From Cytophagales bacterium (GTDB taxonomy: Bacteria > Bacteroidota > Bacteroidia > Cytophagales > Thermoflexibacteraceae), in NCBI GenBank assembly GCA_013299115.1, contig JAAFKA010000009.1:124001-188000 (forward strand): DNA of 64,000 nucleotides, given 5' to 3'. Shown here in pieces: positions 13,380 through 30,124 of the stretch. A program made the position numbers and the translations under genes. Each line of letters starts with the position of its first letter. Position 1 is the first letter of the stretch. Under the pieces are notes generated by a model. That model saw nothing but the letters and a program-made list of their open reading frames with translations. It was not told the DNA's origin and ran no database searches.

Positions 13380-14222
13380 ATGCTGGTTATTTACATTTTA
13401 ATTGGAATTTTAGTAGCCTATTTGCTTATCAATTTGATAGTGTATCAAATTCAAGAAAGATTTATTTTTAAGCCTGAAAAATTGCCTCAAGATTTTGAGT
13501 ACAAGTACAAAACGCCGTTTAAAGAACTGTTTTTTGAGATGGAAGACGGAGGCAAAATCAATGGCTTGCTATTTCCTGTAGAAAACTCAAAAGGTTTGGT
13601 GGTTTATTTTCATGGCAACAGTAGAAGTATCAAGGGCTGGGCAAAATATGCGAAAGATTTTACCCAACATGATTTTGACGTGGCAATGATAGATTACAGA
13701 GGTTTTGGCAAAAGCATAGGCAAACGCAACGAAAGAACTTTGAAGGCAGATGCCACCAAATTTTATGAAACCTTGCTCAAGGATTACCACGAAAGCAACA
13801 TTATTATCTACGGCAGGTCTATGGGGTCGGGTTTTGCAGCCAAAGTAGCCTCTATGAATCACCCTCGTATGCTCATACTCGATGCCCCGTATTACAGTTT
13901 CAGTCGGCTTACCAAACGATATTTGCCTTTTTTGCCTGTGCCTTGGATTTTGCGTTACCATATCCGCACCAATACTTTTTTGAAATATGTCCGTTGCCCT
14001 ATCCGCATCATTCATGGCACGAAAGATTGGCTCATTCCTATTCAGTCCAGCAAAGATTTGGCAGAAATATTACCCGAACAGACCATTTTATACCAAATAG
14101 AAGGCGGAGGACACAATAATTTGCCCTCTTTTCCTGAATATTACAATATTTTAGGGCAAATTTTGGCAGATGCTATGCGGTTGCCTTACGAAAGACAACT
14201 GCACAGACCCGAATTATTTTAG
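13380..14222 (+). CDS. Membrane-anchored alpha/beta hydrolase (serine hydrolase)
   Basis: The protein has 280 residues. An N-terminal membrane anchor (about 2-22) precedes an alpha/beta hydrolase fold: oxyanion-hole motif YFHGNSRS (77-83), nucleophile elbow G-R-S147-M-G-S, an acid in IIHGTKDWLIP and the catalytic His in EGGGHNN. This resembles the ABHD13/ABHD17 and BEM46 class of small serine hydrolases. The substrate is unknown; esters, acyl lipids or peptides are possible. The acyl-CoA ligase gene follows 73 bp downstream on the same strand, so an operon is likely and a lipid-related role is a reasonable guess. Confidence 0.82.
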   Translation: MLVIYILIGILVAYLLINLIVYQIQERFIFKPEKLPQDFEYKYKTPFKELFFEMEDGGKINGLLFPVENSKGLVVYFHGNSRSIKGWAKYAKDFTQHDFDVAMIDYRGFGKSIGKRNERTLKADATKFYETLLKDYHESNIIIYGRSMGSGFAAKVASMNHPRMLILDAPYYSFSRLTKRYLPFLPVPWILRYHIRTNTFLKYVRCPIRIIHGTKDWLIPIQSSKDLAEILPEQTILYQIEGGGHNNLPSFPEYYNILGQILADAMRLPYERQLHRPELF

Positions 14223-14295
14223 GAAATTATTAGTGTTAATTTTCAAGTAACTGCTTTAATAAAAGCCTGTTGCACTCATTTAATCCAGCATAACC

Positions 14296-15987
14296 ATGAC
14301 CAACACCACTAACCATTTTATTTGGCAACAAAAATACCCGAAAGGTATCAACCCCACCATAAATGCAGACGAATACAGTTCTCTGCTCGATGTGTTGGAA
14401 CAAGCTATACAACAATACAGAAACAACACCGCCTACATACACATGGGCGTGGAGTTGAGTTACCAAGAAATAGACAGGCTTTCCTTGCAATTTGCTACCT
14501 ATTTGCAAACCAAAACCAACCTCAAAGCTGGGGATAGAATTGCTATTCAGATGCCCAATATTATGCAGTATGTGGTGGCTTTGTTTGGGGCTTTGCGGGC
14601 TGGGCTGGTCATTGTCAATACCAATCCTCTCTATACGCCAAGGGAAATGGAACATCAATTTAATGATTCGGGGGCAAAAGCTATTGTGATTTTGGCAAAT
14701 TTTGCCCACCTTTTAGAAAAAGTGTTGCCAGCTACGCAAATAGAAACTGTTATTATCACAGAGATTGGAGATTTAATGTCTTTTCCTCGCCGCCAACTAA
14801 CCAACATTGCCGTAAAATACCTGAAAAAATTAGTTCCACCTTACCATATTCCCAAAGCTATTTCGTTTAGGCAGGCATTGGGGGCAAGAACAGAAGACTA
14901 CCAACGCCCTGCGGTAAAAAGTTCGGATATTGCCTTTTTGCAATACACAGGTGGCACCACAGGTGTATCGAAGGGTGCTATGCTCACGCACCGCAACATG
15001 ATTGCCAATATGCTGCAAATTAAAGAATGGGTAAAAGGTGCAGACATTCAAGAAGGTGTAGAAACCATTGTTACAGCTCTGCCTTTGTATCATATTTTTT
15101 CGCTGACTGTTAATTGCTTTGCGTTTTTTGCCTACGGAGGTCGCAACTTGCTGATAACCAACCCCAGAGATATGAAAGGATTTTTGGCAGAAATGGCAGC
15201 TTACGATTTCACAGTGATTACAGGCGTAAACACCTTGTTCAATGGTATGCTCAACCAACCTGAATTTAAGACTCTGAACTTCAAAAACCTGAAAACAACA
15301 GTGGCAGGAGGCATGGCTTTGCAGTCTTCGGTCAATGCTCGGTGGAAAGAAATGACAGGCAAGGCTATTTGCGAAGGATTTGGACTGACCGAAAGCAGCC
15401 CTGTTCTCTGTTGCAACCCGACCAATGGCACAGCCCAAGATGGTACGATTGGTATTCCTGTTCCCTCTACCGAAGTGCGAATTTTCAATGATGAGGGCAT
15501 AGAAGTACCACAAGGCGAAAGAGGAGAATTATGGGCAAAAGGTCCTCAAATCATGGCGGGTTATTGGCAACGACCAGACGAAACCAAAGAAGTGCTTGAA
15601 AATGGTTGGCTCAAAACAGGAGATATAGCCATTATGAACAGCGACGGTTTTTTCAAGATAGTAGATAGGAAAAAAGACATGATTTTGGTTTCAGGTTTCA
15701 ACGTCTATCCAAACGAGGTGGAAGATGTGGTGGCTGCTCACCCCAAAGTGCTGGAAGTGGCTGCGATTGGCGTGCCTGACGATAAATCTACGGAGGCTGT
15801 TAAGGTTTTTATTGTCAAAAAAGACGATTCTTTGACTGAAATTGAGATTAAAGAGTTTTGCAAAGACAAAATGACAGGCTACAAACTACCAAAGCATGTG
15901 GAGTTTAGGCAAGAACTCCCCAAATCAAACGTAGGCAAAATTCTTAGGCGTATGCTTAAAGATAAGCCACCTTCGAAGGATAAGTAA
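14296..15987 (+). CDS. fadD: Long-chain acyl-CoA synthetase (AMP-forming)
   Basis: The protein has 563 residues, the normal FadD length. It activates fatty acids as acyl-AMP then acyl-CoA. Visible motifs: P-loop-like YTGGTTGVSKGAMLTHRN (about 218-235), the fatty-acid-binding region with ALPLYHIFSLTVNC, GFGLTESSPV, the ATP-binding KTGDIA and FKIVDRKKDMI, and the C-terminal lysine in NVGKILRR. It follows the alpha/beta hydrolase gene and ends at a strong terminator-like hairpin. Confidence 0.92.
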   Translation: MTNTTNHFIWQQKYPKGINPTINADEYSSLLDVLEQAIQQYRNNTAYIHMGVELSYQEIDRLSLQFATYLQTKTNLKAGDRIAIQMPNIMQYVVALFGALRAGLVIVNTNPLYTPREMEHQFNDSGAKAIVILANFAHLLEKVLPATQIETVIITEIGDLMSFPRRQLTNIAVKYLKKLVPPYHIPKAISFRQALGARTEDYQRPAVKSSDIAFLQYTGGTTGVSKGAMLTHRNMIANMLQIKEWVKGADIQEGVETIVTALPLYHIFSLTVNCFAFFAYGGRNLLITNPRDMKGFLAEMAAYDFTVITGVNTLFNGMLNQPEFKTLNFKNLKTTVAGGMALQSSVNARWKEMTGKAICEGFGLTESSPVLCCNPTNGTAQDGTIGIPVPSTEVRIFNDEGIEVPQGERGELWAKGPQIMAGYWQRPDETKEVLENGWLKTGDIAIMNSDGFFKIVDRKKDMILVSGFNVYPNEVEDVVAAHPKVLEVAAIGVPDDKSTEAVKVFIVKKDDSLTEIEIKEFCKDKMTGYKLPKHVEFRQELPKSNVGKILRRMLKDKPPSKDK

Positions 15988-20919: not shown

Positions 20920-23406
20920 ATGGCAACTATTTATAACTCAAAAAACACCCTTGTAAATGTAACAATGGGAGCTATACAAGGAAATTTCCATGTAGGAGAT
21001 GTTTATCATTTGCATTTTCAAGATGGGACAAATCAAGAAATCAGACTATCGGAAATCAAAGATAAATTGCAAGATGACTTGTTAGCACAACTATTAGAAA
21101 TAGCAAAAGGCAAAGATTTTTATGATAAAATAGCAAAAGCCTTACAAAAACCTAAAAAATATTTGTGGGGCACACCTTCGCACCCCGAAGTATTTTTGGG
21201 CAGGGCAAAAAACATTGAGGATTTGCACGAAAAACTATTTGATAGGGAGCAAGAAAATATTTTGCTGCTCGTAAATGGACAAGGCGGAATAGGCAAAAGT
21301 ACCCTTGCTGCCAAATATTACCACGAGTATAAAAATGAATACCAACATTTGGCGTGGGTGCTGGCTTCGCCCACCATTTTAGATGCTGTTTTGAACCTTG
21401 CCATGCCTTTGAATGTAAGTTTTCCAAAAGAAATGCCCAACGAGCAACGCCTTGAAGTGCTGCTAACCGAAATGGCTAATTTGGATAAACCTTGCCTGTT
21501 GATTTTGGACAATGCCAATGACCTAACAGATTTGGAAAAACACTACAAAAACCTACGCAGTTGCACGAACTTTCACATTTTGATAACTTCTAAAATTAAC
21601 AAGTTGGGAGAAAAAGAACCTTACAAGGTGCTTCCACTTTCAAAAGATTTTGCATTAAAACTATTTACAGAGTATTATCCATAACACGCAGCAACAGAAA
21701 ACCAAATTTTTTACAATTTGTATGAGGCTATTGAAGGCAATACCTTAGTGATTGAGATTTTGGCAAAAAACTTAACCGAAATTAACCAAAACGAAACCTT
21801 TTATTCATTGGCAGACCTTATTGCAGATATTCAGAAAAAAGGCTTGTTGCAATTATCAGAACAAAGTCCAATTAGAACAGATTGGCAACAGAGTTTTGAG
21901 AAAACAGCACCCGAAAATATCATCAGGGCTATGTATGATTTACGCCCTTTGTCTGACGAAGAACTCTATTTGTTAAGCAACTTTTCGGTTTTGCCTCCCG
22001 AAAACATAGCTTACCAAACTTTCAAAGAGTTGCTACAACCCGAAAATCCAAAACAATTTTCTGATACCCTGACTTTGTTGTATAGAAAAGGTTGGGTAGA
22101 TAAAAATATTTTGGAAGGGCAAAAGTATTACAAAATTAGTCCTGTGGTGCAGGAGATTGTGAGGGAGAGGAATAAGGAAAGGTTGTGGAGGAGTTGTGGA
22201 AAAATGATTTTTATTTTGTCTGATAAATTAAACTGGCAAAACAACTCCAGTAATTATCACCAAGACAATTACAAATTGACTACGTTGTATAGTCATTATG
22301 CAAAGAGTATAGCAAATTTATACTTAGGAATAGTTCATGGTAAAGACTTTACAATTATGCACAACATTGGTGTGCTTTGCGAAAGGATAGGTTATTTCTA
22401 TGCGACCACAGGCAATCTAAACAAAGCCCTTAATTTTTATGAACAGCAAAATGAAATTAGTAAACAATTAGTAACTCAAAGTCCGAGAAACTTAGAATAT
22501 AAAAATAGTTTAGCTATTTCTTATAGTTTTTTAGGTAACACTTCTTTAAACTTGGGTAATTTAAACAAGGCTCTGAATAATTATGAAAAACTTAATCAAC
22601 TCTCAAAAGAACTTTACGAAGAAAATAGTAAAAATTATAAATTTAAAAATGATTATGCAATTTCTTATTCAAAATTAGGCTACGTACATGAAAAGTTAGG
22701 GAACTTAGACAAATTATTAAGGCACTATGAAGAAATGAATAATTTATTTCAAGAGTTACATACTGATAATCCAATAAATGAGGTTTTTAAAAATGGTTTG
22801 GCAATTTCTCATGAAAAATTAGGTAATGCTCATAGTATTTTGGGCAACTTAGAAAAAGCATTAGCTTATTATGAAAAATACAATCAATTAGAAAAAGAAC
22901 TGTACGATAGCTACCCAGCGAATGTGAGTTTTAAAAAAAGTTTTGCAATTTCCTGTGAAAAATTAGGTACAACTTATAGGACAATGAATAACATTGAGAA
23001 AGCATTATATTTTTTCACTAAAAACAATCAATTATTAAAAGAATTGTATGATGCTTACCCTTCCAATGTGAATTTAAAAGATGGTTTGGCTATTTCTTAT
23101 GAAAAATTAGGTGATATTAATTTCAGCTTTGGTAATGTAGATAAAATGTTAGCATATTATGAAGAAAGTAATAGACTATCTAAGGAATTATATACTACTT
23201 ATCCTAATAATGTAGAATTTAAAAATAATTTGGCAATTTCATATATCAGATTAGGAAGTTTCTATAAAAAAACAGACGTAAACAAAGCCAAAGCTTATCA
23301 CTTAGAAAGTCAAAAACTATTAGCTGAATTGGTACAAATTTCCCCTGCCTACGCAGAATTTCAAAAGAATTTGAAATGGGTGGAAAATAGGTTGGCGGGG
23401 TTGTAG
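20920..23406 (+). pseudogene. STAND/NLR-type NTPase with TPR repeats, split by an in-frame TAA
   Basis: Reading from 20920 the frame stays open to 23406 (828 codons) except for one TAA at 21682-21684. The N-terminus (6-27) carries the motif shared with the preceding protein. An NB-ARC-like module follows: FLGRAKNIEDL (92-102), Walker A GQGGIGKST (120-128), Walker B CLLILDNAND (192-201) and LITSK (221-225). After the stop the frame continues with the GLPL-like GNTLVIEILAKNL, a winged-helix region and, from about codon 470, seven or eight TPR-like units of about 48 residues (LGNLEKALAYYEKYNQLEKELYD). The nonsense codon separates the nucleotide-binding half from the rest. It could be recent decay, programmed readthrough or a sequencing error. 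An ATG at 21718 could start the second half separately. Confidence 0.75.
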
Positions 23407-24359
23407 TGTGGGTTTTAACCCACACAAAGCACAATAACTTGACGAAATAACGTAAATTGTGTGGGCTGAAGTCCACACTACTGTAGTGTAGGTTTTAACC
23501 CAGACAAGACACAATAACTTGACGAAATAACGTAAATTGTGTGGACAGAAGTCCACACTACTGTAGTGTAGGTTTTAACCCACACAAGACACAATAACTT
23601 GACGAAATAACGTAAATTGTGTGGACAGAAGCCACACTACTGTAGTGTAGGTTTTAACCCACACAAAGCACAATAACTTGACGAAATAACGTAAATTGTG
23701 TGGGCTGAAGTCCACACTACTGTAGTGTGGGTTTTAACCCACACAAAGCACAATAACTTGACGAAATAACGTAAATTGTGTGGGCTGAAGTCCACACTAC
23801 TGTAGTGTGGGTTTTAACCCAGACAAGACACAATAACTTGACGAAATAACGTAAATTGTGTGGGCTGAAGTCCACACTACTGTAGTGTAGGTTTTAACAC
23901 ACACAAGACACAATAACTTGACGAAATAACGTAAATTGTGTGGACAGAAGCCACACTACTGTAGTGTAGGTTTTAACACACACAAGACACAATAACTTGA
24001 CGAAATAACGTAAATTGTGTGGACTGAAGTCCACACTACTGTAGTGTGGGTTTTAACCCACACAAAGCACAATAACTTGACGAAATAACGTAAATTGTGT
24101 GGGCTGAAGTCCACACTACTGTAGTGTGGGTTAAAACCCACACAAAGCACAATAACTTGACGAAATAACGTAAATTGTGTGGGCTGAAGTCCACACTACT
24201 GTAGTGTAGGTTTTAACCCACACAAGGCACAATAACTTGACGAAATAACGTAAATTGTGTGGGCTGAAGTCCACACTACTGTAGTGTGGGTTTTAACCCA
24301 CACAAAGCACAATAACTTGACGAAATAACGTAAATTGTGTGGACTGAAGTCCACACTAC
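23402..24359. repeat. Tandem array of 12 REP pairs (80-bp period)
   Basis: Twelve head-to-tail units start at 23402, 23482, 23562, 23641, 23721, 23801, 23881, 23960, 24040, 24120, 24200 and 24280. Ten are 80 bp and two are 79 bp. Each unit has a first palindrome GTGTGGGTTTTAACCCACAC, a spacer of about 33 bp (ACAATAACTTGACGAAATAA and so on) and a second palindrome GTGTGGGCTGAAGTCCACAC. Units differ by a few point changes (GTAGG/GTGGG, GACAGAAG/GGCTGAAG). Variants recur along the array, which suggests local amplification. The transposase gene begins 8 bp after the last unit. There are no unique spacers, so it is not CRISPR. Confidence 0.95.
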
Positions 24360-24366
24360 ATAAAGT

Positions 24367-25032
24367 ATGAAACCTATCAAAACACATTACCGCACCTCAT
24401 TACCACATATTCAGCCAATAGGGGAGGTATTTTTTGTTACTTTCCGATTGGCAGATTCCTTGCCTTTGGAGGTTGTGGAGGAACTGAAACAAACGTATCA
24501 AGCATTGAAATTAGCTTTCCAACATAGTAAAACTCCTACGGAAAGAGAAAATTGTTGGAAGGAGCAAAAAAGGTATTTTGCAAAGTTTGATAGGTGTTTA
24601 GATGGTTACAAAGGAGGCAATCATTGGCTCAAAAATCCCGAAATTGCAGAGATTGTGGCAAAAAAGTTGTTGGAGTTTGATAAAAAATACTACGATTTGT
24701 ATGCTTATGTTATCATGTCTAATCACGTACATCTCTTGGTAGATTTTGGCAAGCAACTTGATAGGTTGCCTTCGTCTGTGCTACTTTCAGAGGAGAATTA
24801 CAAGCCTTTATATGACGTAATGCGACTGATAAAAGGTGCTACTGCAAGGTATGCGAATGATATTTTGAAAAGAACAGGAACTAATTTTTGGCAAAGAGAT
24901 AACTATGACCACTATGTAAGAAATGGTATAGAATTGAATAATATTGTTAGTTATATTGTTCAAAATCCTGTACAAGCAGGGGTTGTGGATAATTGGCAAG
25001 ATTTTCCGTTTGTGTATGTTGCCGAAATGTAG
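24367..25032 (+). CDS. REP-associated tyrosine transposase (RAYT, Y1/HUH family)
   Basis: The protein has 221 residues. It has the single-domain HUH nuclease pattern of IS200/RAYT enzymes: an N-terminal strand VFFVTFRLADS, the metal-binding MSN-H120-V-H122-LLV motif and the catalytic Tyr in FWQRDNYDHYVRN (Tyr180 or Tyr183), followed by the IVSYIVQNPVQAGVVDNWQDFPF tail typical of RAYTs. RAYTs nick single-stranded REP hairpins; here the gene is embedded between the 12-unit array and a further cluster of the same palindromes. The stop codon TAG lies inside the first downstream REP. The enzyme is probably the domesticated factor that spread these repeats. Confidence 0.9.
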   Translation: MKPIKTHYRTSLPHIQPIGEVFFVTFRLADSLPLEVVEELKQTYQALKLAFQHSKTPTERENCWKEQKRYFAKFDRCLDGYKGGNHWLKNPEIAEIVAKKLLEFDKKYYDLYAYVIMSNHVHLLVDFGKQLDRLPSSVLLSEENYKPLYDVMRLIKGATARYANDILKRTGTNFWQRDNYDHYVRNGIELNNIVSYIVQNPVQAGVVDNWQDFPFVYVAEM

Positions 25033-25240
25033 TGTGGGTTTTAACCCACACATTTACGTTATAGTTCATGTGTGAGTTAAAACCCACATTACGATTGTAG
25101 TGTGGGTTTTAACCCACACATAATAAAATAATTTTGACGTAATAATGTAAAATATGTGGGCTTCAGCCCACATTACGATTGTAGTGTGGGCTGAAGCCCA
25201 CACTACAATCGTAATGTGTGGGTTAAAACCCACACTACAA
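25029..25240. repeat. REP cluster between RAYT and dnaE ends
   Basis: Six palindromes of the same family in mixed orientation, at about 25029-25052, 25068-25093, 25096-25117, 25151-25174, 25178-25210 and 25211-25240. The one at 25178-25210 is near-perfectly symmetrical around GGGCTGAAGCCC. The first supplies the RAYT stop codon. The last abuts the dnaE stop codon at 25241-25243. Confidence 0.9.
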
Positions 25241-28200
25241 TTATCCCACCTTCCCCATCACCCCCAGTCCTTTCAATTCATTCAGCAAATCATTGCTGGG
25301 GTTTACCCTAAATTTTGTGCTGCGAGTGGGCAGGTCTATGTTTTCGTCTTTGTCCACCACCCGAACACGAAGTTCGCAGTTGCCATTGTGTTTGGCAAAA
25401 AGGCTGTTGAGGGTTTGGATAGTGGCGGAGGTCAGGGCAGAAGGTACAAGGGTAACTTCCAACCATTTTGCTTTGTCGCGCAGGTCGGCGAGGTAGCTGA
25501 TGGTTTTGGGGCGAAACTCCCACATACCGGGTTGGTTGTATCTTTCCTCTACTTTTCCTCTGATGAAAAGAAACTCCCCATTTTTGAGGTAGGCGGTATT
25601 TTTGGCGTAATCTTCGCCAAAAAATGCAATTTGCAGAGAACCGTTGTAGTCCACTAAATTGGCGAGGGCAAAGGTTTTTCCGTTTTTGCTTTGCTTAATG
25701 CTCACGTCATTTAAGATGCCACCCAAAGAAATATCTCTGTTTTTGTGGATTGCATAATCCACTACACTGCACGTGCAGTTTGCGTCCATGTCTAACTTAA
25801 ATCTGTCTAAGGGGTGTCCCGATAGGTAAAAACCTACGACTTCTTTCTCCTTGTCGAGGGTTTCCATTGTTCCCCACTTGTCGCAGTCGGCTAATTTTGG
25901 AATGGTTACGCCACCCGAATTTGCCCCGCTGCCTCCCAAAAACAGCGAAACATTGCCCGAGCTTTGTTCGGCTTGGGCTGCTGCACCGTATTTTAGGATT
26001 TTTTCTAAGTTGGTCATGTTGTCTGCCCCCATCACAAAAAACATGGCTCGGTGTATTTCTTTGAAAGTATCAAAAGCCCCTGCTTGTGCTAAACTTTCAA
26101 AGGTTTTTTTGTTTACTGTCCGCAAATTTAGTCGTTTGGAAAACTCAAAAATGTCGTTGTAGTTGCCGTTGGCTGCTCTGTCTGCAATGATTTCCTCTAC
26201 TGCCACCTCGCCTGTGCCTTTCACTGCACCCAAACCGAAACGAATGTCGCCTTTTTTGTTTACGCTAAAATTCTTTTCACTTTCATTGACATCGGGACCC
26301 AAAACAGTTAAGCCCATGCGTTTGCACTCCTCCAAAAAGAAAGATATTTTTTCTATCGTACCCATAGAGTGTGTCATCACCGCAGCCATATACTCGGCGG
26401 GATAGTTGGCTTTGAGGTAGGCAGTTTGGTAGGCAACGACTGAATAGGCAGCCGAGTGGCTTCGGTTGAAACCATACTCCGCAAACTTTTCCATGACCGC
26501 AAACACTTCGGCAGCTTTGGCTTCGGGAACTTGGTGGTATTTTTTTGCACCCTCCACAAACTTGTCTTTCTCCTTCGCCATTTTCTCCTTGTCCTTCTTA
26601 CCCATAGCCCGCCGCAACAAATCTGCACCGCCCAAACTATAATTTGCCATGACTTGGGCAGTTTGCATAATTTGCTCCTGATAAACCATAATCCCAAACG
26701 TATAATTCAAAATAGGTTCAAGCAATTCGTGGGGATATTCGGTAGTTTCTTTGCCATGTTTTCGGTTGATATAGGTTGGGATAAAATCCATTGGACCAGG
26801 TCTATACAAGGCATTCATTGCAATCAAATCCTCAATATTTGTCGGTTTCAAATCACGCAAATACATCTGCATACCCTCACTTTCAAATTGGAAAGTGCCA
26901 ATGGTATTGCCTTTTTGGTAGAGTTCATACGTTTTTTTGTCGTCAATCGGTATTTTGTCTAAGTCAATCAACACGCCATGATTTTTTTGGATTAAATCAA
27001 TGGCATCACGCATAATGGTCAGGGTTTTTAAGCCCAAAAAGTCCATTTTGAGCATACCAGCCTCCTCTATGTGCTTGCCGTCAAACTGCGTTACCAATAA
27101 ATCTAAGGCTTGTCCGCCACCTTCCTCGTCGCCATCGGCTGCTTTTTTGTCGCCTTTGTCCTTCGCCAAGCAAACAGGAATGTAGTTGGTGATGTCGTCA
27201 GGGGCAATGATTACGCCTGCTGCGTGAATACCTGTACCCCGCACAGACCCCTCCAAAATTTCGGCACTTTGCAGCACTTTTGCCCGCAAATCACTCCCTC
27301 TGCGGATAGCTGCCAATTCTGCAACTTCCTCGTAGGCTTTGGCAAGGGTGGTGCCTGGTTTTTCGGGAACAAGTTTTGCCAACGCATTTGCCTCCTCTAA
27401 GGGCAGTTCCAGCACTCTGGAAACGTCTTTTATCGACATTTTTGCAGCCATTGTACCATAAGTAACAATTTGTGCCACTTGATTTTTTCCGTATTTGTCC
27501 ACCACATAATCAATAACTTTACTCCGTCCCTCGTCGTCAAAGTCAATATCAATATCGGGCATGGAAACCCTTTCTGGATTTAAAAACCTCTCAAAAAGTA
27601 GCTTGTATTGAATGGGGTCGACGTTGGTGATGTTTACGCAATAGGCAACGGCAGAGCCTGCTGCCGAGTTATGTACCAAAAAAGAAGACGTAAGGTAATT
27701 GTGATTATTTTTAACTTCAATGTCATAAACCACCAAAGGTTTTTGATTTTTTCGTCGTTTTGCAACTTTTTCAATCTCCCGAATGGGGACTAAAAAACCA
27801 TTTTCTGTTCTAATGTAGGTAGGTTTTTCATTCAAATTTCTAATCAAACTAACATATTCATTATAGACCTCAAATTTGAATTGCACCAATTCGCCTATTC
27901 TTTGGTAGAGTTTTAGCAAGTAAGGTTTTAGGGCTTTTCCAAAATTATTACCACTAATTTCTACTAAATCTTGTTTATCTCGACAACCTGCCAAAAATGC
28001 TTTCACTAAATTTTTTGGTGCTTGCAAAATCACATCTGGCAAGGAATAAACAGCTTGGAAGCCATTAGAACTAACATTTCTCAAAGAAATGTTAGTTCTT
28101 TCTTGTTCTTTGTCCATAGAAGTAACATTTCTCAAAGAAATGTTACTTCTTTCTTGTTCTGTATCAAAAACTTTTGCAATGACCCCAACCAAAAACTTGT

Positions 28201-30124
28201 CTGTAATTGTAATTTTGGTAGTTATGTAGTCATATTCTACATCACTTTCGTCATATCGGCTATTTTTTTCTTGACTTAGTTTATAGTTCGTAAAATAATG
28301 GTTTCGCAAGAAAGTCAAAACAAAGTCGTAATTGTCTGTTCGGTTGCCCCAACCTTCGGTTATAATACCCAAACGGACTTTATTTTCCGCCAATGAATAA
28401 GCCCCAAAATCTGCCACAATGCCGAAAAAACGAAACCAGCCTTCATTGAGTTTCACAAACCTGTCCCGCATTTCGGGCATATCGTATTCTTGCGAATTGA
28501 GTGGGTCGGGCATTACGTCTAAATCTGTCAAGAAAATTTTATCTTCGCTGATGTAACTTTCTCGTCTTTCAAATTTCCCTAAGTCAATCGTAATTGGCTC
28601 AATTTCAGCAATTTGCACGTTTGGAATAAACAAATAATCATCTTTTGAGATTTCTTGGGCTTGTTTCCAAACAAAATCTGTTTCTTTTGTAGCATAGACT
28701 TTAGTCTGTGCTTTATCTTTTCCACCAATTTTTTCACAGACTAAGGCGTCCCCGACTAAAGTCTGTGCTACAGTTTTTGATACAGTCAAAACTTTATGGT
28801 CTTTGGTTAGCGTAATTCCTTGACTATCACCATAATAAGTTTTGATATTTAGCAAATCTTCTGTAACTTCATATTGCATGGTGTTCAAAACTTTCTGCAC
28901 CGAACCGTCTTGGGTAATGACCCTATCGCCAACTTGCACGTCTTTCAACTCTTTCAAACTTCCGTTCGGCATAACAATTTTTGCCTCACCTGTCAAGCAA
29001 CCCCGCCCAGGTCCTACCCATACGCCCATGTCTTTGGCGGCGTTGATAAAATCTTGCACAATGAGAAAATATCCAGGGAAACCCATTTTTTGGATAATCT
29101 CCAATTCATAGTTTAGCCTTTGCTCAATGTCGGCTGTGATGGTGCCATATTTTTTGGCTGCACCCTGAAACGCAAGGTGTTTCAGAAAATCATCTTGCGT
29201 AGCAAAACCTTGTGGCAAAGGAAAGGCAGGCAAAAGAATATCACGTTTGAGTTTCAATTTCTCTACCTTGTCGGCAATTTCGCAAGTAAAATCAAGTGCT
29301 TGGGGCAAATCACCAAACAATTTATTCATTTCAGCTTGCGTTTTGAAGAAAAACTCACTGTTCGGAAAGCCAAACCGTTGCCCTTTGCCATCACCTTTTG
29401 GCGTTGCATATTTCTCACCTGTGTTGATACACAAGAGAATATCGTGAGGGTCAAAATCTTTTTCGTTTACATAATGGCTGTCGTTAGTCGCAATAACTTT
29501 CAAATCATATTTTTTGGCAAGTCGCAATAAAATCTGGTTTACATCTTCTTGACTGATGCCTGTTCCATCTATATTTTCTAATCCGTGACGTTGCAATTCT
29601 ATGTAATAATCCTCTTTTCCAAACAAGTCCACATACCATTTTAGCACTTTTTCGGCTTCTGCTTCGCCTTTATGAATGATAGTTTGGGGAATTTCCGCAC
29701 CAATACAGCACGAAGTCGCAATAATTCCTGTCGAATATTTTTGCAAAATTTCCTTGTCAATTCTCGGATATTTGGAATAATACCCATCAATAAAGCCCAA
29801 AGAACAGAGTTTTGAGAGGTTTTTATAACCTTCGGGGTTTTTGGCAAGCAATAATTGATGATAACGCACATCTTTGCTGGTCTTGGTAAATTGCTTTTTG
29901 TGTCTATCGGCAACCAAATAAAATTCGCAACCCACAATAGGTTTTACGCCTTGCTTGTCGGCTTCGGCTACGAATTTGAAAGCCCCAAACATATTTCCGT
30001 GGTCAGTCAAGGCAACGGCTTTCATTCCGTCTGTGGCAGCTTTTTTCATCATTCCCGAAATAGACGCAGCCCCATCGAGGAGTGAGAATTGAGAATGGCA
30101 GTGGAGGTGGCAAAAGTGTTGCAT
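25241..30124 (-). CDS. dnaE: DNA polymerase III alpha subunit, intein-containing precursor
   Basis: The start at 30124 gives MQHFCHLHCHSQFSLLDGAAS, the standard PHP N-terminus, and lies 20 nt after a -7 box; a longer frame upstream would cross the promoter. The precursor has 1627 residues. Removing the 444-residue intein (376-819) leaves 1183, a normal DnaE length. Parts in order: PHP domain (1-about 290), GPGRG/SAAGS junction, palm with the catalytic PDIDIDF after the intein, LRRAMGKKDKEKM fingers, YRPGPMDFIP, helix-hairpin-helix region and C-terminal OB fold (ISLGGILNDVSIKQSKNGK). It is the replicative polymerase, so splicing is presumably essential. The 3' end is partly duplicated at 19970-20056. 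Confidence 0.95.
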   Translation of the reverse strand: MQHFCHLHCHSQFSLLDGAASISGMMKKAATDGMKAVALTDHGNMFGAFKFVAEADKQGVKPIVGCEFYLVADRHKKQFTKTSKDVRYHQLLLAKNPEGYKNLSKLCSLGFIDGYYSKYPRIDKEILQKYSTGIIATSCCIGAEIPQTIIHKGEAEAEKVLKWYVDLFGKEDYYIELQRHGLENIDGTGISQEDVNQILLRLAKKYDLKVIATNDSHYVNEKDFDPHDILLCINTGEKYATPKGDGKGQRFGFPNSEFFFKTQAEMNKLFGDLPQALDFTCEIADKVEKLKLKRDILLPAFPLPQGFATQDDFLKHLAFQGAAKKYGTITADIEQRLNYELEIIQKMGFPGYFLIVQDFINAAKDMGVWVGPGRGCLTGEAKIVMPNGSLKELKDVQVGDRVITQDGSVQKVLNTMQYEVTEDLLNIKTYYGDSQGITLTKDHKVLTVSKTVAQTLVGDALVCEKIGGKDKAQTKVYATKETDFVWKQAQEISKDDYLFIPNVQIAEIEPITIDLGKFERRESYISEDKIFLTDLDVMPDPLNSQEYDMPEMRDRFVKLNEGWFRFFGIVADFGAYSLAENKVRLGIITEGWGNRTDNYDFVLTFLRNHYFTNYKLSQEKNSRYDESDVEYDYITTKITITDKFLVGVIAKVFDTEQERSNISLRNVTSMDKEQERTNISLRNVSSNGFQAVYSLPDVILQAPKNLVKAFLAGCRDKQDLVEISGNNFGKALKPYLLKLYQRIGELVQFKFEVYNEYVSLIRNLNEKPTYIRTENGFLVPIREIEKVAKRRKNQKPLVVYDIEVKNNHNYLTSSFLVHNSAAGSAVAYCVNITNVDPIQYKLLFERFLNPERVSMPDIDIDFDDEGRSKVIDYVVDKYGKNQVAQIVTYGTMAAKMSIKDVSRVLELPLEEANALAKLVPEKPGTTLAKAYEEVAELAAIRRGSDLRAKVLQSAEILEGSVRGTGIHAAGVIIAPDDITNYIPVCLAKDKGDKKAADGDEEGGGQALDLLVTQFDGKHIEEAGMLKMDFLGLKTLTIMRDAIDLIQKNHGVLIDLDKIPIDDKKTYELYQKGNTIGTFQFESEGMQMYLRDLKPTNIEDLIAMNALYRPGPMDFIPTYINRKHGKETTEYPHELLEPILNYTFGIMVYQEQIMQTAQVMANYSLGGADLLRRAMGKKDKEKMAKEKDKFVEGAKKYHQVPEAKAAEVFAVMEKFAEYGFNRSHSAAYSVVAYQTAYLKANYPAEYMAAVMTHSMGTIEKISFFLEECKRMGLTVLGPDVNESEKNFSVNKKGDIRFGLGAVKGTGEVAVEEIIADRAANGNYNDIFEFSKRLNLRTVNKKTFESLAQAGAFDTFKEIHRAMFFVMGADNMTNLEKILKYGAAAQAEQSSGNVSLFLGGSGANSGGVTIPKLADCDKWGTMETLDKEKEVVGFYLSGHPLDRFKLDMDANCTCSVVDYAIHKNRDISLGGILNDVSIKQSKNGKTFALANLVDYNGSLQIAFFGEDYAKNTAYLKNGEFLFIRGKVEERYNQPGMWEFRPKTISYLADLRDKAKWLEVTLVPSALTSATIQTLNSLFAKHNGNCELRVRVVDKDENIDLPTRSTKFRVNPSNDLLNELKGLGVMGKVG
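28067..28150. repeat. Two tandem 15-bp-arm palindromes inside the intein (family A)
   Basis: Arms 28067-28081/28085-28099 and 28118-28132/28136-28150 are perfect inverted repeats with loop CAA and core AACATTTCT/AGAAATGTT. They belong to a 51-bp (17-codon) tandem duplication, translated as EQERSNISLRNVTSMDK then EQERTNISLRNVSS. The second palindrome differs by matched changes in both arms (CTA to GTA with TAG to TAC), so symmetry has been preserved. Confidence 0.9.
28688..28772. repeat. Inverted pair of family B repeats inside the intein
   Basis: TGTAGCATAGACTTTAGTCT (28688 onward) and the opposed GACTAAAGTCTGTGCTACA (28754-28772) flank about 42 bp. The same GTAGCATA.ACTTTAG type recurs between genes at 1342, 38213, 62881-62953 and 63298. 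Within the intein it is translated as roughly AQTLVGDALVCEKIGGKDKA and TKVYATK. Confidence 0.8.

Follow-up and report, generated by a model that had tools for sequence, protein, structure and literature searches.

The window, a stretch of 64,000 nucleotides, carries a dnaE gene (DNA polymerase III alpha) that is interrupted by an intein, and two families of palindromic repeats, here called A and B, lie within the intein coding sequence. The gene, the intein and its repeats were placed as follows.

25244..30124, minus strand: dnaE, intein-bearing; matches to NF004226 and TIGR00594, with TIGR01445 and TIGR01443 marking the intein ends
27668..28999, minus strand: DnaE intein of 444 aa, junctions GPGRG^C ... 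HN^SAAGS; PF14890 match and alignment
28066..28165, minus strand: tandem repeat with a period of 51 bp (17 codons), holding both family A hairpins; repeat analysis
28067..28099, minus strand: family A hairpin, second in reading order, RTNISLRNVSS; repeat and fold analysis
28118..28150, minus strand: family A hairpin, first in reading order, RSNISLRNVTS; repeat and fold analysis
28688..28710, plus strand: family B REP monomer, TGTAGCATAGACTTTAGTCTGTG, 0 mismatches, with the identical 23 bases in the sister intein; pattern match and alignment
28709..28777, minus strand: 69 nt (23 codons) missing from the sister intein, edges uncertain by a codon or two; codon alignment
28735..28772, minus strand: family B REP, inverted, in a longer form with internal GGGGACGCC; sequence, with 28750-28772 matching at 3 mismatches

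Each family A hairpin of the intein spans 33 bp (15+3+15) with arms that are 100% complementary, and the copies of the 51-bp tandem repeat are 92% identical over 49 nt. The outer arms of the family B pair (28688-28706 and 28754-28772) are 95% complementary. Repeats of both families are read in frame, as the peptides EQERSNISLRNVTSMDK / EQERTNISLRNVSS and TVAQTLVGDALVCEKIGGKDKAQTKVYAT. The family A core was found four times in the window at up to two mismatches and the family B monomer five times at up to three, with none of either in 100 dinucleotide-preserving shuffles. The fold z-scores were -8.05 and -7.44 for the two family A hairpins and -4.82 for the family B pair. Based on the shuffle counts and these scores, a chance origin of the two families could be excluded. 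A preliminary description of this DNA had placed the palindromes of both families at these same positions and had reported a compensated arm change between the two family A hairpins; the positions were right and the change is real, arm position 5 being G-C in one hairpin and C-G in the other.

Splicing-competent inteins carry an N-terminal Cys, a TxxH motif, a C-terminal HN and a Ser at position +1. In the alignment, the window intein has kept C1, TKDH, H443 N444 and the following Ser, and it is predicted to splice still. An active LAGLIDADG homing intein has two intact LAGLIDADG motifs. The window intein lacks such a pair, with FGIVADFG and FLAGCRDKQD at the positions of FGIFTGDG and FLAGYCAADG in the f2 inteins. 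GDG and (A/V)DG are kept in the G012 intein and in four f2 inteins. Since ADFG and CRDKQ replace them in the window intein and in that of its sister genome (G002), the endonuclease looks dead in this genus pair. By alignment, the family A block sits between the two endonuclease motifs and family B between splicing block B and the endonuclease, so that both inserts are outside the splicing motifs, in and beside the decayed endonuclease domain. An AlphaFold2 model of the intein, made from an alignment of 3 sequences, was too poor for use (mean pLDDT of 46.6).

We have then compared the inteins found at this site. Nine of 291 sampled genomes of the order, its own included, had a related intein at E <= 1e-20. 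Eight inteins besides that of the window were examined, seven of which could be read through (L129 could not); six of the seven were informative, four of these from one genus, the remaining one (L130) being a 257-aa mini-intein without most of the domain. The family A block was found in none of these seven readable inteins (six informative), and the REP monomer in the sister alone. The sister intein (L017) occupies the same site, has 395 aa and is 60% and 66% identical to that of the window over two aligned pieces. At the family A site it is shorter by 27 codons, a number that is an alignment estimate since the flanks there are not alike in the two inteins. At the family B site 69 nt (23 codons) are missing, but a perfect REP monomer, with all 23 bases identical, stands in the same position.

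These data supported the earlier claim that genome repeats had been inserted in frame. Clean insertion was sustained in part: the inserts are absent from the sister, but clean nucleotide-level edges were not obtained. When the flanks of family A copies and of sample hairpins were searched by BLAST against the loci collected, there were no nucleotide-level empty sites, the single match being to a related longer element. The inverted family B pair is in frame as described, but it is not one clean insertion, with one member also in the sister intein and 69 nt more in the window. Because the same REP monomer lies at the same place in both inteins, a single REP most likely preceded the split of the window and sister lineages, the inverted pair having formed in the window lineage; alternatively, the sister would have lost one REP of a pair.

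The preliminary description had also named a pattern that would speak against insertion, namely the same peptides with broken palindromes in inteins of distant hosts, and this pattern was not seen in the seven readable inteins. The segments could still be old intein parts that the sister and outgroup inteins have lost. In all aligned inteins, the stretch that separates splicing block B from the endonuclease does vary in length and sequence, and one REP is kept in the sister. This would nevertheless require loss of the family A block in all six informative inteins, and the DNA equals intergenic repeats with perfect arms, which is unexpected for old coding sequence; we regard such an origin as very improbable.

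GTAG REPs are described as having GTAG at one end by a stem-loop of 20-40 bp and a high copy number, often as inverted dimers. The family B repeat of the intein agrees with this in its tag and stem-loop, its copy number and its inverted pair. Judged by its sequence, family B is a GTAG-tagged REP. Its monomer had 82 matches in its own genome at up to 2 mismatches (control 0), and at the same threshold four of the 13 genomes of the family had 82, 408, 82 and 24 matches, with 408 in the sister. Elsewhere in its own genome (G000:C25:20228-22235), three occurrences of the same REP pair, at spacings of 961 and 974 bp, suggest that this region is triplicated.

Family A is also a repeat of its own genome (5.5 Mb in 74 contigs), the core occurring at 116 places at up to one mismatch with a free loop, and at none with the reversed-pattern control. 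At least 107 distinct places, at up to 2 mismatches of the oriented core, were analysed among the matches listed. Neither end of a longer element accompanied the hairpin at 59 of them, both ends at 26 and one end at 22. Seventeen of the 26 complete elements measured 89 nt with GTAG...CTAC ends; neither intein copy was among them. The 33-bp hairpin itself bears no GTAG or CGTC tag, the latter judged by eye in the listed flanks. The core was met in five of the 13 genomes of the family, its own included, and the exact 22-mer in six of the 291 sampled genomes of the order. One of the six (G099, loci L258-L268) belongs to another family of the order and holds 146 exact cores with other flanks. Quite different flanks surround the same 33-bp core in G099 and in other genera, so that it behaves as an independent module, and its distribution is patchy.

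The symmetry of the hairpin was analysed at the six outer arm positions, which lie outside the 21-base search core, in the 107 copies. Watson-Crick pairs filled 583 of the 642 cells, compared with 131-232 when the partners were slid by 1-3 bases. Arm positions 2, 3 and 5 switch pair types, with CG in 68 copies, GC in 16 and AT in 11 at position 5, so that both forms found in the intein exist genome-wide. The observed pair count at positions 2-5 was reached in none of 2000 shuffles, while the nearly invariant positions 1 and 6 were uninformative (686 and 117 of 2000). The copies of family A are related, and these counts are not counts of independent events. The claim that paired changes keep the hairpin symmetric thus held across the genome, and such changes fit either arm-to-arm copying or selection on the hairpin. 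Arm-to-arm copying is the process called quasi-palindrome correction.

We have also collected hairpins with arms of at least 13 bases and loops of 3-9 from an 864-kb sample (stretches of contigs C1, C12, C23 and C34 plus the window). There were 136, and none in two mononucleotide-shuffled 64-kb controls. Three-base loops were present in 67, and 47 of these were centred on TTTGA (29) or TTTAA (18). Beside A, the stem families were D (AAAGATGTCATTTT), E (TTATCGGACACC), F (TATCGGGTGGC), G (AAACCTTRYAAGG) and H (AAACTTTCCAAGTC), the letters after B having been assigned in the present analysis. By a simple rule, 15 of the 136 hairpins lay inside ORFs, one of them in a probably spurious 130-aa frame. 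For the three-base-loop hairpins with arms of 13-22 that could be placed, 13 of 60 were inside ORFs (the intein has two of these, duplicated neighbour genes another two and a doubtful frame one). Genes are therefore strongly avoided, as ORFs cover 78-87% of the sampled stretches.

Perfect arms, strong folding, paired arm changes and a core and loop common across genera would all be expected if the hairpins were functional RNA or DNA signals under selection (terminators, stability or protein-binding sites), those in genes being incidental. However, the 47 intergenic three-base-loop hairpins comprised 12 between convergent, 10 between divergent and 25 between tandem genes, close to the shares of intergenic length (23.9, 33.4 and 75.2 kb of 132.5 kb) and with no clear convergent leaning; the 10 between divergent genes are near the divergent share of length. 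The terminator reading is disfavoured by this gene orientation, and the 13 hairpins inside ORFs are where terminators would do harm. The window had no Rfam match at the gathering score, and the patchy spread of the family also argues against a conserved signal. We consider this explanation improbable.

Based on the preliminary description, which had called for a survey of other ORFs and had taken the palindromes to lie otherwise between genes, we have looked for translated family A copies. Most copies are intergenic as described, but seven of the 107 places lay well inside ORFs, two in the intein and five in other ORFs. The latter encode a FAN1/VRR-NUC-like protein, an HI0933-like flavoprotein, AroB, a histidine kinase (within HATPase_c) and a 1007-aa frame, which is open at both ends of its 3-kb locus and has a sub-threshold match to a contractile-injection tape-measure family. 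All seven copies are read in the same hairpin phase (..NI..RNV..). The remaining overlaps with ORFs are at ORF ends or span the first ATG and may be non-coding. Family A copies within genes were met in this genome alone: by the rule used, no family A copy was inside an ORF in 31 loci of G099 and G002, and 23 loci from other genomes had overlaps at ORF ends and none inside.

Relatives were compared for AroB, the HI0933-like and the FAN1-like proteins. In each of the 12 other family genomes, the match to AroB was interrupted where the insert lies, with about 40 residues or more missing there in 10 of 10 aligned relatives, and the two solved chains shown also break at this point. For the HI0933-like protein, the match broke in 10 of the 11 other genomes having it and ran through in G011, and the hairpin peptide was absent in 8 of 8 aligned relatives. 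This ORF has an apparent second, partial copy beside its hairpin. The hairpin peptide of the FAN1/VRR-NUC-like protein was absent in 7 of 7 aligned sequences, in a variable region where L178 has other residues. The G002 protein, whose match contains one stop, carries an insert of its own nearby and is for that reason no shorter in total. In this sister FAN1-like protein (L185, G002:C4:40380-42134) about 30 extra residues (SPPTPLQIERGDF...) lie near the position of the G000 insert and may be another translated repeat. As far as alignments can tell, in-frame insertion with relatives lacking the insert holds for the intein, AroB, the HI0933-like and the FAN1/VRR-NUC-like proteins.

Other hairpin families were also translated. 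The AlaRS (alaS) frame contains an in-frame family H hairpin (L292:319-347); at this point the two solved AlaRS chains shown are about eight residues shorter. Going by residue position, the Pfam matches that have hairpins within them are those to LysE, HATPase_c, COR-A, SpoIIE (in two genes), DUF7149 and DUF7814; the hairpin in DUF7814 has longer arms and a loop of 8 bases. The LysE-like ORF, which has a family F hairpin, had a single family match of 37% identity that was useless for defining edges. The COR-A case is an LRR-Roc-COR-TIR protein with an in-frame family E hairpin (L214:9042-13811). Two neighbouring ORFs (L204:10745-13453 and 13480-14604) share a stretch with the same in-frame hairpin, which seems to have been carried by gene duplication. 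The suggestion that the intein is notable as a protein region free of host function was consequently not supported, translated hairpins being present also in aroB, alaS, a HATPase domain and other genes.

We have searched for transposase genes associated with these hairpins. The window has a RAYT-like gene next to dnaE, and two more are flanked by families F and E.

24367..25032, plus strand: RAYT-like Y1 transposase gene with GTAG REPs on both sides; PF01797, with NF047646 below cut-off
23402..24359, no strand assigned: 12-copy tandem array upstream of RAYT, its 80-bp unit beginning and ending with GTAG-REP ends; repeat analysis
25068..25218, no strand assigned: GTAG-REP hairpins downstream of RAYT; repeat and flank analysis
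L291:1209-1907 (contig C11): RAYT-like gene flanked on both sides by family F, hairpins within ~65 nt; flank analysis
L292:1348-2290 (contig C28): RAYT-like gene flanked on both sides by family E; flank analysis

The GTAG REPs beside the window RAYT, 21 nt upstream and 161 nt downstream, are of another subtype than the intein copy, and no RAYT beside the intein's own REP subtype was found among the Y1 genes examined. Families E and F are unrelated to GTAG REPs and each has a Y1 gene with the repeat on both sides (L292 and L291), as in a TIRtron; the sequence evidence for their link to RAYT-like genes is strong. Near another RAYT-like gene (L221) there are inverted repeats of a different kind, ~54-66 bp long. 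Of the four PF01797 hits, L289 and L290 belong to the IS200 type, L289 falling slightly short of the NF033573 cut-off. Neither has a clear link to a hairpin family: L290 is accompanied by a family G hairpin on a single side, and L289 by none within 1 kb. All the RAYT-like proteins scored below the NF047646 cut-off. Neither the window RAYT nor L221 was picked up by the PF01797 family search, and the list of Y1 genes is accordingly incomplete. Within this incomplete list (HMM against ORFs of the collected loci), no transposase flanked by family A was present among the four PF01797 hits, the window RAYT and L221. Movement of family A by a RAYT-like transposase is suggested by analogy, since its build is shared with families E and F.

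The repeats might instead have spread by replication template switching or by gene conversion from other copies, with no transposase involved. The tandem duplication that accompanies the intein insert, the partial second copy beside the HI0933-like hairpin and the paired arm changes, which fit arm-to-arm copying, would be in line with this, as would the fact that no transposase is tied to family A. Yet RAYT-like genes have copies of E, F and GTAG REPs on either side, with the nearest ones no more than ~165 nt away, which is the REPtron/TIRtron arrangement as set out in the available part of PMC3733652. We think that spread without a transposase is unlikely.

Taken as a whole, the in-frame mobile palindromes are real and well supported. 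Our preferred reading, to which we would give a probability of about three in four, is that Y1/RAYT transposases move these REP-like hairpins, which are tolerated wherever they keep the frame, and that paired changes preserve the arm symmetry. A single GTAG REP would most likely have entered the intein before the sister split, to become in the window lineage an inverted pair with 69 more nt. The family A hairpin, found in the window intein only, is most likely a later arrival that went on to be duplicated, flanks included, as a 51-bp unit. Movement would have been in the form of single-stranded hairpins, by Y1/HUH (RAYT-like) transposases, a step that for family A is drawn by analogy only. In-frame copies may have survived because they landed in the decayed endonuclease domain and the linker, away from the splicing motifs, the position being given by alignment and splicing being presumed. 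Symmetry could be kept by arm-to-arm copying in replication (template switching), by the mobility of symmetric hairpins only, or by both. Several other genes have received in-frame hairpins by the same process, as their sequences show and, for three genes, also relatives that lack the insert.

More tentatively, RAYT-type hairpin families in one Bacteroidota lineage could keep rewriting proteins by in-frame peptides of ~10-30 residues, with arm pairing renewed even in genes and decaying intein endonucleases as one landing place. If the hairpins in genes do stay mobile, coding sequences would be donors as well as targets. The present case offers a system outside Rickettsia, with a close relative available, for studying how short mobile palindromes become protein segments; the lineage is presumably free-living, judging from its 5.5-Mb genome. 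The intein is a clean host, since splicing can readily be assayed and the mature polymerase no longer contains the insert. Stages can be seen in the two inteins, a REP monomer in the sister versus an inverted pair in the window, together with a tandemly duplicated hairpin. With two hairpin families on the flanks of RAYT-like genes, the proposed mover can be tested directly.

The likeness to Rickettsia palindromic elements (RPEs) drawn in the preliminary description is fair, as here too several multi-copy palindrome families are in frame in unrelated genes. RPEs are ~150 bp long and form ten families, with 44 insertions in R. conorii, nearly half of them in ORFs, according to the part of a review available (PMC10969869). 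Set against these descriptions, the present repeats differ in their Cytophagales host, 33-bp hairpins, intein location and RAYT-like genes flanked by sibling families; families A and B, from a different phylum and likened by description, are not assigned as RPE members. Family B agrees with the GTAG-REP superfamily, for which the available part of Di Nocera et al. 2013 (PMC3733652) describes GTAG tags, stem-loops, dimers and RAYT genes: it has the tag, the stem-loop, many copies and the inverted pair, and a RAYT gene of the same genome lies between GTAG REPs, of a subtype other than that in the intein. The same part reports REPs within genes, in some cases two in a single ORF, with R. conorii dnaE among the hosts, whereas the copy described here is in an intein within dnaE. 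The main text of that paper does not contain the word "intein" and mentions Bacteroidetes once, for CGTC repeats. Families E and F resemble its TIRtrons, as far as these are described there, in being hairpins unrelated to GTAG REPs that lie on both sides of Y1 genes and are dispersed in the genome; unlike those, members here are also in frame in several genes, and family A is tied to no gene. The small mobile sequences of enterobacterial genes, MITE-like elements of 103-168 bp with open frames in the available part of PMC2759123, are alike by description as small repeats with open frames in genes and unlike in length and host. The matches listed in a literature search, to which subscription papers were mostly out of scope, included no report of such repeats in an intein. 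The kind is thus known from in-gene REPs and RPEs, and what looks new is the intein host, the two unrelated palindrome classes within it and the translated untagged three-base-loop families, some of them tied to RAYT-like genes, in Cytophagales.
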